A stretch of DNA of 64,000 nucleotides, taken from contig NZ_CP049867.1 of NCBI RefSeq assembly GCF_011299595.1, forward strand, positions 1,550,001 to 1,614,000, written 5' to 3'. A program made the translations under genes and the position numbers. Position 1 is the first letter of the stretch. Each line of letters starts with the position of its first letter. Shown piece by piece: positions 49,896 to 56,707 of the stretch. The notes beneath the pieces are model-generated. The model saw only the letters and a program-made list of their open reading frames with translations. It did no database searches and was not told where the DNA came from. This stretch comes from Nocardioides sp. HDW12B. GTDB lineage: Bacteria > Actinomycetota > Actinomycetes > Propionibacteriales > Nocardioidaceae.

Positions 49896-50510
49896 TCAGC
49901 GCAGCAGCAGGTGGATCGCGGTGTCCATGTGCTTGGCGACGTCCTGGGCGCTGGCGCGACCGGTCACCCACTGCACCAGGGCCGCGAGCCAGACGTCGCC
50001 GATCACCTTGGTGATCGCGATCTCCTCCTCGGTCGGCTCGTGGCGCTCGAACGTCTCGTCCGGGTCCGCCATCGCGCGCATCAGCAGCCGGGTGACCTGC
50101 ATGCCGACGGCGTGGATCTCGGTGGCGACCGAGGCGTCGGCGAACATGAAGGCGCGGGTGAGGGCCTCGGTCAGGTGCGGGTCCTGCTGCAGGGTGCGCG
50201 TGGTGCGGCGCAGCACGTGCGTGACGCGCTCGGCGGGGGTGTCGCCGGGCACGACGCGCTTGTCGATGCCGGTGTTGGCGCGCTCGAACTCGCGGCCCAG
50301 CGCGGAGACCAGCAGGTGGATCTTGGAGGGGAAGTAGCGGTAGAGCGTGCCGAGGGCGACGTCCGCCTGCTCGGCGACCGCGCGCATCTGCACCGCGTCG
50401 AAGCCGCCCTTGGTGGCCAGCGCGATGGTGGCGTCGAGGATCCGGGTGCGTCGCTCCCGTTGGGCGCTCGAGCCCAGGTCGTCGTGGGTCAGTGAGTTGG
50501 TGCTGCTCAT
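49896..50510 (-). CDS. kstR: KstR, TetR-family repressor of cholesterol/steroid catabolism
   Basis: 204 residues. DLGSSAQRERRTRILDATIALATKGGFDAVQMRAVAEQADVALGTLYRYFPSKIHLLVSALGREF is nearly the same as mycobacterial KstR through the whole DNA-binding domain (QRERRKRILDAT, YEAVQMRAVADRADVAVGTLYRYFPSK), and the ligand domain keeps LTEALTRAFMFADASVATEI and ITKVIGDVWLAALVQWVTGRAS. KstR represses sterol-degradation genes and is released by steroid-CoA or side-chain-CoA intermediates. An operator of its class overlaps the region between it and the divergent glycosyltransferase operon; a second lies before fadE34. Only fadE34 of the classical regulon is in the window. Confidence 0.93.
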   Translation of the reverse strand: MSSTNSLTHDDLGSSAQRERRTRILDATIALATKGGFDAVQMRAVAEQADVALGTLYRYFPSKIHLLVSALGREFERANTGIDKRVVPGDTPAERVTHVLRRTTRTLQQDPHLTEALTRAFMFADASVATEIHAVGMQVTRLLMRAMADPDETFERHEPTEEEIAITKVIGDVWLAALVQWVTGRASAQDVAKHMDTAIHLLLR

Positions 50511-50586
50511 CGGAGCGACCCTTCCACACGGTGCGGGGGACAGATCGAGGGCTGGAGCCGGTGCGGACCCGTCCGGGCCCCGTCGT

Positions 50587-50626
50587 AGGCTAGCACCGGC
50601 TGAGCGTAGAATCGGAACACGTTCCA
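50587..50626. promoter_or_regulatory. KstR-type operator and divergent promoters for kstR and the glycosyltransferase operon
   Basis: CGGAACACGTTCCA at 50613-50626 fits the KstR consensus TnnAACnnGTTnnA except for the first base. On the plus strand TAGAAT (50607-50612) directly abuts it, so the start site for the glycosyltransferase operon falls inside the operator. On the minus strand TAGCCT (50592-50587) gives a kstR promoter whose -35 zone meets the operator. Confidence 0.75.
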
Positions 50627-50687
50627 GTTTTGTCACGGTCGGGCTGCACCCCGACGGGCGCACCACACCCGAGAGGCCGCACCCCCC

Positions 50688-54482: not shown

Positions 54483-54533
54483 CGCGCCAGCGTAGGGGGC
54501 GCGGGCCCTCGCTCCACGACGGCCCGACCGTGC

Positions 54534-54554
54534 GAGAATCTGGAACACGTTCTA
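54534..54554 (+). promoter_or_regulatory. KstR operator and -10 element of fadE34
   Basis: TGGAACACGTTCTA at 54541-54554 matches the KstR consensus TnnAACnnGTTnnA at every fixed position. GAGAAT (54534-54539) precedes it by one base, the same layout as at the glycosyltransferase operon, so a bound repressor would cover the start site. Confidence 0.85.
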
Positions 54555-54574
54555 CTTCGAACCCGGGAGTGACC

Positions 54575-56707
54575 ATGGCGATCGCGTTGACCGACGACCA
54601 GCGGGCCCTGGCGGACGCCGTGCGCGAGTGGTCCGCCTCGCTGGAGCCGTGTGCGCTGGTCAAGCGCTCCGAGACCGAGGGCCCCGACGCGTTCGCGCCG
54701 GCCGCCAAGGGCGTGGCCGAGCTCGGTCTCGCCGGCATCGCCCTGCCCGAGGACCTCGGCGGCGGGGGAGGGACGGTCCTCGACCTCGCGGTGGCGGTCG
54801 AGGCCGCCGCCGAGGCCCTGGTGCCCGGCGCGCTCGTGACGACCGCTGCCGCCGCCCTCGTCGTCGGTGGTGACCTCGCCCGCGACGTCGCCGCCGGCAC
54901 GGCCACGGTCGCGGTCGGGCTCGGCCCCAGCACGCTGACGGACGCGGGCCGCGACGGTGCCGACCTGACCGGCGAGGCCACCCGCGTCTGGGGTGCCGGG
55001 GTCGCCACCCACGCGCTGCTGCCGACCGCCGACGGCAGCTGGGTCCTCGTCGACGCGGCGTCGGCCGAGGTCGAGGCCGGGGACCCCCTCGACCTCGCCG
55101 GCCGGACCGGGACGCTGCGCCTGCACGGCGCCCCGGCGACCCCGGTGCAGGTCGACGCCGCCCGGCTGGACCGGCTGCTCGTCACCCTCGCCGCGGCCGA
55201 GGCGTCCGGCATCGCGCACTGGTGCGTGCGGACCGCGACGGCGTACGCCCGGACCCGTGAGCAGTTCGGTCGCCCCATCGGCTCGTTCCAGGCCGTCAAG
55301 CACCTGTGCGCGCGGATGCTCGAGGCCGCGGAGTCCGCCACCGCCGCCGCCTGGGACGCCGCCGGCTGCGCCGACGACGCCGGGCAGGAGGACGCCGAGC
55401 AGCACGCGCTCGCCGCCGCTGTCGCCGGGGCGAGCGCGCTCGACCTCGCCGTCGACACCGCGCACGACGCCATCCAGGTGCTCGGCGGCATCGGCTACAC
55501 CTGGGAGCACGACGCCCACCTCTATCTGCGCCGTGCCCTGACCACCCGGCTCGTCCTCGGGGGCTCCGACCGGTTCCGCCTCGCGCTGGCCGACCTCGCC
55601 CGCGCCGGCGTACGGCGTCGGGTCCACCTGCCGCTCGGCCCCCGCGCTGAGGAGGTACGTCGTGAACTCGCGCAGACGATCGCCGAGGTGACCGCAGCGC
55701 CCGTCACCGACCGGCAGGCCGCCCTGGTCCGCACGGGTCTGCTCATGCCGCACTGGCCGGCCCCCTACGGTCGCGACGCCGACGCCGTGGAGCAGCTCGT
55801 CATCGACGAGGAGCTGGCCCGCGCCGGTGTGGAGCGACCGAGCCTCTTCATCGGGGCCTGGGCCGGGCCCACGATCGTGGCGCACGGCACCCAGCAGCAG
55901 AAGGACCGCTTCCTGCCGCCGACGCTGAGCGGGGAGATCACCTGGTGCCAGCTGTTCAGCGAGCCGGGGGCCGGCAGCGACCTCGCCGCGCTGCGCACCC
56001 GCGCCGACCGGGTCGAGGGCGGCTGGGTCCTCAACGGCCAGAAGGTCTGGACCTCCGTGGCCGCCGAGGCCGACTGGGCCATCTGCCTGGTCCGCACCGA
56101 TCCGGAGGCCGCCAAGCACCGCGGCATCAGCTATGTCCTGCTCGACATGACCACCCCGGGCATCACGATCCGGCCGTTGCGCGAGCTGACCGGCGAGGCG
56201 CTGTTCAACGAGGTGTTCCTCGACGACGTGCACGTGCCCGACGACTGCGTGGTCGGCGAGGTGGACGGCGGGTGGCCGCTCGCGCGGACCACGCTGGCCA
56301 ACGAGCGCGTCGCGATCAGCGACAGCTCCTTCGGCGTGAGCGTCGAGCGGGCGCTGGCGGCGGCGGGCGACGACCCGTCCGCCCTGGTCCGTGAGCGCCT
56401 CGGCGGCGCCGTGGCCGAGGCCGGGCTCAGCAAGGCGCTGGGGCTGCGCGCCACCCTGCGCACCCTGGCCGGGGCCGGTCCGGGGCCGGAGTCCAGCGTG
56501 CAGAAGCTCGTCGGCGTCCGGCAGCGGCAGGACTCCGCCCAGCTGGCGCTGGACCTGCTGGCCGGCGACGTGCTGAGCGGCACCGAGCAGGGCCGGGCGG
56601 CGGTGCACGAGGCACTGGTGACCCGCTGCCTGAGCATCGCGGGCGGCACCACGCAGGTCCTGCTGAACATCGTGGGGGAGCGGATCCTGGGTCTCCCGCG
56701 GGACTGA
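54575..56707 (+). CDS. fadE34: Two-domain acyl-CoA dehydrogenase, FadE34 (ChsE3) type
   Basis: 710 residues, against 711 for M. tuberculosis FadE34; two acyl-CoA dehydrogenase units in one chain. The N-terminal unit (about 1-345) ends in a typical QVLGGIGYTWEHDAHLYLRRA but lacks the FAD-loop motif; the C-terminal unit (about 365-710) has WCQLFSEPGAGSDLAALRTRAD, NGQKVWTSVA and GGTTQVLLNIVGERILGLPRD. FadE34 dehydrogenates branched C5-side-chain steroid CoA esters, cholate-type and cholesterol-type. ATG follows GGGAG by five bases. In M. tuberculosis it lies next to kstR; here a glycosyltransferase/methyltransferase cassette has been placed, or kept, between them. A KstR operator covers the promoter. 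Confidence 0.92.
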   Translation: MAIALTDDQRALADAVREWSASLEPCALVKRSETEGPDAFAPAAKGVAELGLAGIALPEDLGGGGGTVLDLAVAVEAAAEALVPGALVTTAAAALVVGGDLARDVAAGTATVAVGLGPSTLTDAGRDGADLTGEATRVWGAGVATHALLPTADGSWVLVDAASAEVEAGDPLDLAGRTGTLRLHGAPATPVQVDAARLDRLLVTLAAAEASGIAHWCVRTATAYARTREQFGRPIGSFQAVKHLCARMLEAAESATAAAWDAAGCADDAGQEDAEQHALAAAVAGASALDLAVDTAHDAIQVLGGIGYTWEHDAHLYLRRALTTRLVLGGSDRFRLALADLARAGVRRRVHLPLGPRAEEVRRELAQTIAEVTAAPVTDRQAALVRTGLLMPHWPAPYGRDADAVEQLVIDEELARAGVERPSLFIGAWAGPTIVAHGTQQQKDRFLPPTLSGEITWCQLFSEPGAGSDLAALRTRADRVEGGWVLNGQKVWTSVAAEADWAICLVRTDPEAAKHRGISYVLLDMTTPGITIRPLRELTGEALFNEVFLDDVHVPDDCVVGEVDGGWPLARTTLANERVAISDSSFGVSVERALAAAGDDPSALVRERLGGAVAEAGLSKALGLRATLRTLAGAGPGPESSVQKLVGVRQRQDSAQLALDLLAGDVLSGTEQGRAAVHEALVTRCLSIAGGTTQVLLNIVGERILGLPRD

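Follow-up and report, generated by a model that had tools for sequence, protein, structure and literature searches.

Which function is served by four genes that lie between kstR, encoding the repressor of a sterol regulon, and fadE34, encoding an acyl-CoA dehydrogenase of sterol side-chain degradation, and do these genes answer to KstR? The question is raised by a 64,000-nucleotide stretch (the window) of the genome of Nocardioides sp. HDW12B, which consists of a single contig of 4.19 Mb. A preliminary description of the window had placed a KstR-like repressor and a 710-residue two-domain FadE34 on either side of a GT4 glycosyltransferase, a methyltransferase, a toroid protein and a convergent second methyltransferase, and all of these genes are present. 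Taken as a whole, the best explanation, with a probability of roughly 0.7, is that the sterol regulon of the host includes this cassette, almost certainly the gene cluster described for 3-O-methylmannose polysaccharide (MMP). The MMP biosynthetic cluster is already known; what appears to be new is its regulatory setting, since no link between MMP and KstR could be found described in the literature searched (open-licence papers only), as the preliminary description had supposed for a unit of this kind.

Identity of the cassette

The assignment rests on homology and gene order. The sole match of the window's MmpH in the PDB up to an E value of 0.1 is 7qsj, "Methylmannose polysaccharide hydrolase (MmpH)" (E 4.8e-126). 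For MeT1, a single PDB entry matches at up to E 0.001, namely 6g7d (E 7.8e-77), which we take to be the M. hassiacum MeT1. The best match of ManT is 7qsg (E 5.7e-161), an entry titled D-inositol 3-phosphate glycosyltransferase; it is taken as the ManT structure of PMC9883506 because the residue numbers of that paper, shifted by 26, match the letters of the alignment. MeT3 carries a Methyltransf_11 domain and sits between manT and mmpH in all examined loci that have both. In nontuberculous mycobacteria, according to the excerpts of PMC9883506, the MMP cluster comprises manT, pmeT3, mmpH and meT1 (MHAS_04402-04405 in M. hassiacum). All four genes are found together in the window in the published order, with meT1 facing the other three, as it does in five loci of the mycobacteria-like family f7. 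The difference lies in the surroundings: the window's cluster is flanked by kstR, fadE34 and predicted KstR operators, whereas the f7 clusters adjoin neither gene and no site was found at their manT.

The catalytic residues of ManT and MmpH are largely kept in comparison with the mycobacterial enzymes (PMC9883506, in part). His142, Lys240, Glu313 and Glu321 of ManT are present in the window and in 179/179 other loci with a ManT alignment. In MmpH, the window retains Asp47, Glu262, Glu265 and Asn101, of which Glu262 is the catalytic base and Asp47 a candidate acid; elsewhere, Glu262 is found in 181/181 loci, and position 47 is Asp in 179 loci and Glu in the other 2. Asp50 is replaced by Asn in the window and in 117 of the 181 other loci, and Trp315 of the mycobacterial enzyme is Tyr in the window. 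Replacement of Asp50 by Ala lowered the activity of the M. hassiacum enzyme, and the passages of PMC9883506 leave open which Asp is the catalytic acid; for this reason, Asp50 was not treated as family-defining.

As a side observation, positions 50 and 315 covary (Asn–Tyr in 114 loci, Asp–Trp in 62, other pairs in 5; n=181). Because these two change together while position 47 is Asp or Glu in 181/181 loci, the comparison favours Asp47 over Asp50 as the catalytic acid of MmpH. An oxidosqualene-cyclase-like identity of the toroid was also considered, based on a weak match to TIGR03463 (E 0.00044), and was overruled by the match to 7qsj. Finally, an MmpH relative of 40% identity (L312) occurs in a metagenome-assembled genome of Candidatus Phaeomarinobacter, presumably not an actinobacterium, and may reflect either a real transfer or mis-binning.

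KstR operators in the window and its relatives

The regulator itself scores above the NCBIfam equivalog cut-off (NF033703; 283.2 vs 280 bits). It matches PDB 5cw8, "HTH-type transcriptional repressor KstR", at E 1.9e-63 with very similar DNA-binding helices; we take this entry to be the M. tuberculosis protein. The ligands of KstR are thioesters of coenzyme A (CoA). A literature passage names 3-oxocholest-4-en-26-oic acid and its derivatives. For the operator, a 14-bp palindrome motif was built from the 31 M. smegmatis KstR sites in Table 3 of PMC1995591. Just two sites of at least 14 bits occur in the 64-kb window, at 50613-50626 (18.3 bits) and 54541-54554 (25.7 bits), which bears out the operators described at both ends of the cassette. 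The left one lies in kstR's own promoter region and has C, not T, as its first base. The -10 elements of AGAAT type that had been noted beside them are also there, TAGAAT directly before the left operator and GAGAAT one base before the right. The window holds 7 copies of the core AACNNGTT, where 1.22 would be expected, and 0/100 shuffles reach 7. A further AACGAGTT at 56747, upstream of an aldehyde dehydrogenase gene, scores below 14 bits and was dropped as an operator.

Compared with the mycobacterial KstR regulon as presented in parts of PMC1995591, the window has a KstR equivalog, a TnnAACnnGTTnnA-type operator and a nearby fadE34 target. The mycobacterial kstR and fadE34 genes are adjacent and divergently oriented, in agreement with the neighbourhood in M. 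tuberculosis stated in the preliminary description, whereas in the window the four MMP genes intervene. Since meT1 faces the manT operon and is divergent from fadE34, the right operator lies upstream of both meT1 and fadE34. The closest published parallel is steroid cluster B of N. simplex VKM Ac-2033D (KR76_12190-12345), in which kstR (KR76_12270) and fadE34 (KR76_12295) are separated by four locus tags, as in the window (PMC7807495 and PMC7593942, in excerpts). The genes KR76_12275-12290 are not named in the open-licence literature text; the matching number of tags and the relatives suggest that they are the MMP genes.

MmpH was matched in 125/293 genomes sampled from the order, strongly (at least 270 bits) in 122, of which 120 belong to the family of the window and 2 to a sister family. 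Around MmpH, manT-meT3-mmpH is kept in the 122 genomes, bar one contig end. KstR reaches at least 200 bits in 66 of the 122 and is not found in 56, where at most the 11 best first-look candidates per genome were scored; between positive and negative genomes the scores drop from 202.9 to 109.4 bits. In 58 genomes (57 by BLAST, and G047 with a weaker match) kstR stands divergent beside manT, in 7 of the remaining positive ones it lies elsewhere, and in G109 the contig stops before manT.

Sites were searched in the 272 bp before manT at thresholds of 10 or 14 bits, leaving out L060 (G109, cut before manT) and L192 (a second MmpH-like copy of G346, without manT). The core AACNNGTT stands between kstR and manT in 58/58 linked genomes, and 57/58 reach at least 10 bits. 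It is also found ahead of fadE34 in all 46 genomes in which fadE34 is present in the fetched locus beyond meT1, including G222 with a gap of 1149 bp between meT1 and fadE34. Among the kstR-less genomes, 0/56 have a 10-bit site in the 272 bp before manT (maximum 5.7 bits), 0/56 reach 14 bits anywhere in the 2.5 kb ahead of manT, and 0/54 have a 14-bit site within 250 bp of meT1. The background in real 272-bp windows of kstR-less loci is 15/2858 at 10 bits and 6/2858 at 14.

Mapped onto a 121-row tree of ManT, kstR requires 13 changes, and so does the operator. Supported branches yield seven independent pairs with a difference in kstR; in 6 of them the operator changes with it, and in 0 it changes in the opposite direction (median p 0.031, range 0.031-0.0625), although part of this association is built in because a linked kstR brings its own site. 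In 53/58 linked loci a -10-like hexamer [TC]ANN[AG]T, mostly CATAAT or CATGAT, ends at most 2 bp from the operator towards manT, and a similar hexamer points towards fadE34 in 42/46 loci, TAGAGT in 22; the pattern is loose and carries no chance control. The fadE34 orthologue KR76_12295 is listed as a KstR-regulon gene induced by phytosterol in N. simplex (PMC7807495, Table 3), so that manT has the layout of a responding promoter.

Further evidence comes from loci in which kstR is not the neighbour. In two Nocardioides genomes, a site lies before manT behind a same-strand gene: TAGAACCGGTTCTA with 21.4 bits in a gap of 75 bp (G163), and TGGAACGTGATCTA with 17.9 bits and one core base off in a gap of 98 bp (G226). 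Because the upstream gene runs on the manT strand, these sites cannot be owned by a divergent gene. As these genomes carry sister kstR genes (100/98), the two cases may represent a single event. The upstream gene encodes a pyridine-nucleotide oxidoreductase in G163 (Pfam) and reads alike in G226; the kstR-less Nocardioides loci L042 and L065 have a similar-reading oxidoreductase gene before manT but no site there. In four of five kstR-bearing Aeromicrobium genomes, close relatives of one another, a perfect TAGAACACGTTCTA lies 2.0-2.1 kb upstream of manT. In L073 and L090 it is found 3' of Mce genes and precedes a pair of short-chain dehydrogenase genes; these run towards manT, and the second ends 80 bp before it. 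According to NCBIfam, the dehydrogenases, whose families were scanned in L073, are a 3-oxoacyl-acyl carrier protein reductase and a short-chain dehydrogenase/reductase; the names hsd4A and 3alpha/20beta-HSD would follow by analogy with N. simplex tags. The arrangement looks like a single operon under KstR control, with the MMP genes at its end. In the record of Prauserella isguenensis (G625), which has kstR on another contig, an Mce gene is followed by a site 52 bp ahead of manT, and a second site lies 146 bp before meT1.

Family f20 was sampled by hand, with 22 of the 40 genomes that have MmpH among the matches listed, L210 and L211 included. A site precedes manT in 15/22 fetched loci, and L210 has one 1.7 kb upstream. 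Of the 15 loci that extend as far as meT1, 11 have a site before that gene, in six cases at -58 or -62. In L188-L191, a GDP-mannose 4,6-dehydratase-like gene (by Pfam in L190, by reading in the others) is divergent to manT with the operator in between; its product would draw on the same GDP-mannose pool.

Outside the cassette, the pattern NGAACNNGTTCNA has 25 forward matches in the whole host genome against 4 for the reversed control, an excess that fits a KstR regulon of some size. At 1616065 of the host genome, a KstR-like site lies directly ahead of a wax ester/diacylglycerol acyltransferase gene (TIGR02946; L160:3103-4497, host genome near 1616103), with a ChsH2-type protein close by.

Regulatory readings and their alternatives

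Judged from the comparison of loci, KstR probably acts on the cassette, and MMP synthesis belonging to a KstR-family regulon in several actinobacterial lineages is the best reading of the sites. In the window, KstR at the left operator would block manT-meT3-mmpH, and at the right operator fadE34 plus meT1. As CoA-linked sterol intermediates build up, KstR would leave its sites and MMP would be made and recycled, with MmpH cutting old chains to primers, ManT extending them, and MeT3 and MeT1 methylating the products. MMP is cytosolic, its proposed role is to sequester fatty acyl-CoA and thereby protect it, and an MmpH mutant grows more slowly at 15 degrees (PMC9883506, in part). In this host the polymer would buffer the acyl-CoA or steroid-CoA load of side-chain degradation; that MMP relieves the acyl-CoA load during sterol use is a tentative suggestion. 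The chances are about even that Actinobacteria have more generally put the acyl-CoA-binding MMP under the sterol-CoA-sensing KstR family, so that the carrier is made during sterol or lipid catabolism, an arrangement arisen or kept in several lineages. Its forms, held with the same even odds, would be kstR-MMP-fadE34 in Nocardioides and Marmoricola, mce-dehydrogenases-MMP in Aeromicrobium, mce-MMP in the Prauserella record, and double operators in f20.

Several observations weigh against this reading. The left operator could serve the adjoining kstR alone. None of the five kstR-bearing Aeromicrobium has a site in the 272 bp before manT, and the fifth has no upstream site either. In f20, 7/22 fetched loci lack a manT site, and the sample holds no g70, the commonest f20 genus among the matches listed. 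The regulators of f20 and of the Streptomyces-like family f22 belong to the KstR family and fall below the KstR cut-off, that of f20 being 34-40% identical to the window's KstR, and the f22 operator has its abutting -10-like hexamer on the side of the TetR gene. In f7, 0/8 loci have a site in the 272 bp before manT, seven of the eight genomes being KstR-positive. The M. smegmatis list of 31 KstR sites, as given in the excerpt of PMC1995591, includes MSMEG_6475, not MSMEG_6481-6484. Of the 12 genes of N. simplex cluster B that rose with phytosterol, five are named in the passages of PMC7807495, none between kstR and fadE34.

The f7 loci have other features of their own. In G422, a site lies ahead of a reductase gene whose end touches manT and is predicted to drive that gene. 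A perfect KstR site is found 5.3-5.5 kb beyond meT1 in two loci (L199:13379 and L202:13247), and in M. smegmatis the listed site at MSMEG_6475 (PMC1995591, in part) is a few locus tags away from the MMP genes, MSMEG_6481-6484. In L198, L199, L201, L202 and L228, a different TetR gene is divergent beside meT1; its product is 25-28% identical to the window's KstR and is a candidate local MMP regulator.

Among the alternatives, the one that survives best concerns signal and history, and it is compatible with the explanation preferred for the window. According to it, the ancestral link would be between MMP and a KstR-family TetR sensing ordinary acyl-CoA, with sterol control added later, in lineages whose regulator of this kind came to govern sterol catabolism, and MMP answering a general acyl-CoA load. 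It draws on f22, where a KstR-family TetR of 41-46% identity is divergent to manT in 16/16 loci, with TGAAACTTGTTCTA or a one-base variant between the two in all 16; these loci were chosen from 36 KstR-positive genomes because the pair was near. Among the matches listed, 31 of the 36 genomes have both genes on the same contig and no more than 4 kb apart. Moreover, the segment ALGTLYRYFPSK is the same in the f20, f22 and window KstR proteins shown. In the available part of PMC1995591, SCO2319 is called a possible KstR orthologue without synteny, and SCO2317 is listed as a putative methyltransferase in that of PMC6135851; together they fit the order TetR-manT-meT3. On the other hand, the site in Nocardioidaceae goes with KstR proper, fadE34, mce and dehydrogenase genes. 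In the KstR-family tree the f22 proteins beside manT form their own clade and may or may not be KstR orthologues, which also counts against an acyl-CoA sensor as the ancestral state. This history seems rather unlikely.

A second alternative treats the MMP genes as passengers, with the left operator serving kstR only, the right one fadE34 only, and the cassette between them by descent and independent of sterols. It draws support from the autoregulation of kstR in mycobacteria (PMC1995591, in part), from the 56/122 genomes that have the cassette with neither kstR nor operator, from the f7 loci without a site at manT, and from N. simplex, in which about a third of the predicted KstR operons rose with phytosterol and the authors point out that, of two divergent operons with a site between them, one alone may be regulated by it (PMC7807495, in excerpts). 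However, in G163, G226, G625, Aeromicrobium and f20, manT or meT1 is preceded by a site without kstR or fadE34 being adjacent, and independence of this kind is improbable. The preliminary description had held that a broad presence of the cassette in genomes without kstR would speak against its proposal. The 56 genomes show that the cassette does not require KstR, and they exclude a role limited to sterols; for genomes that do have KstR, they leave control by it untouched.

The weakest alternative, the proposal of the preliminary description that the cassette glycosylates or methylates a sterol, a terpenoid or a surface lipid, has its location between kstR and fadE34 and nothing else in its favour and can be dismissed: three of the four proteins have (putative) MMP enzyme structures as their best or only match and the position of the fourth in the cluster is conserved, a homology that rules out a sterol- or terpenoid-modifying pathway, and mmpH, the cassette marker, is found in 189/394 genomes of the class, many without a KstR match at E 1e-40. 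Of the steroid-regulated biosynthetic unit first envisaged, the control by KstR is thus supported by anatomy and comparison, as far as sequences can suggest it, and the product was wrong.

If the MMP genes do answer to KstR, sterol-fed cells would be a condition in which MMP should be needed. MMP would gain a regulatory signal and a catabolic role besides that in fatty-acid synthesis, and a regulon known for the degradation and uptake of lipids would acquire a biosynthetic branch. In addition, a function could be proposed for the KstR-family TetR of Streptomyces (SCO2319).

Feature coordinates and neighbouring genes

The features of the locus are collected in the table below. The start of mmpH overlaps the stop of meT3 by 4 bp, and the convergent tails of mmpH and meT1 overlap by 14 bp. 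In the domain scan, acyl-CoA dehydrogenase domains were found in the N- and C-terminal halves of FadE34 alike.

Features of the kstR-MMP-fadE34 locus, in window coordinates
Feature	Position	Strand	Basis
kstR, TetR-family repressor, 204 aa	49896-50510	-	NF033703 match (scanned as 49899-50513), PDB 5cw8 match
Possible kstR -10, TAGCCT read on the minus strand	50587-50592	-	Inferred; TAGGCTA-like elements in many kstR-linked relatives
-10-like hexamer TAGAAT, towards manT	50607-50612	+	Inferred; ends directly before left operator
Left KstR operator (predicted) CGGAACACGTTCCA, kstR/manT gap	50613-50626	.	18.3 bits, M. smegmatis-trained motif
manT, GT4 alpha-(1->4)-mannosyltransferase of MMP	50688-51953	+	Best PDB match 7qsg, conserved residues
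meT3, putative 3-O-methyltransferase of MMP	51999-52724	+	Methyltransf_11, cluster position
mmpH, MMP hydrolase (endomannosidase), (alpha/alpha)6 toroid	52721-53803	+	PDB 7qsj match
meT1, MMP 1-O-methyltransferase	53790-54482	-	PDB 6g7d match
-10-like hexamer GAGAAT, towards fadE34	54534-54539	+	Inferred; one base before right operator
Right KstR operator (predicted) TGGAACACGTTCTA, meT1/fadE34 gap	54541-54554	.	25.7 bits, M. smegmatis-trained motif
fadE34 (chsE3), two-domain acyl-CoA dehydrogenase of sterol side-chain degradation, 710 aa	54575-56707	+	Domains

The genes 3' of fadE34 (56814-61193) are ordinary osmoprotectant genes. They comprise a betaine-aldehyde-dehydrogenase-like gene, which scores below the cut-off of that family, followed by a GMC/choline dehydrogenase and an ABC ATPase that were read by eye. 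A betaine-binding protein domain is found in an open reading frame of L160, at the right end of the window.

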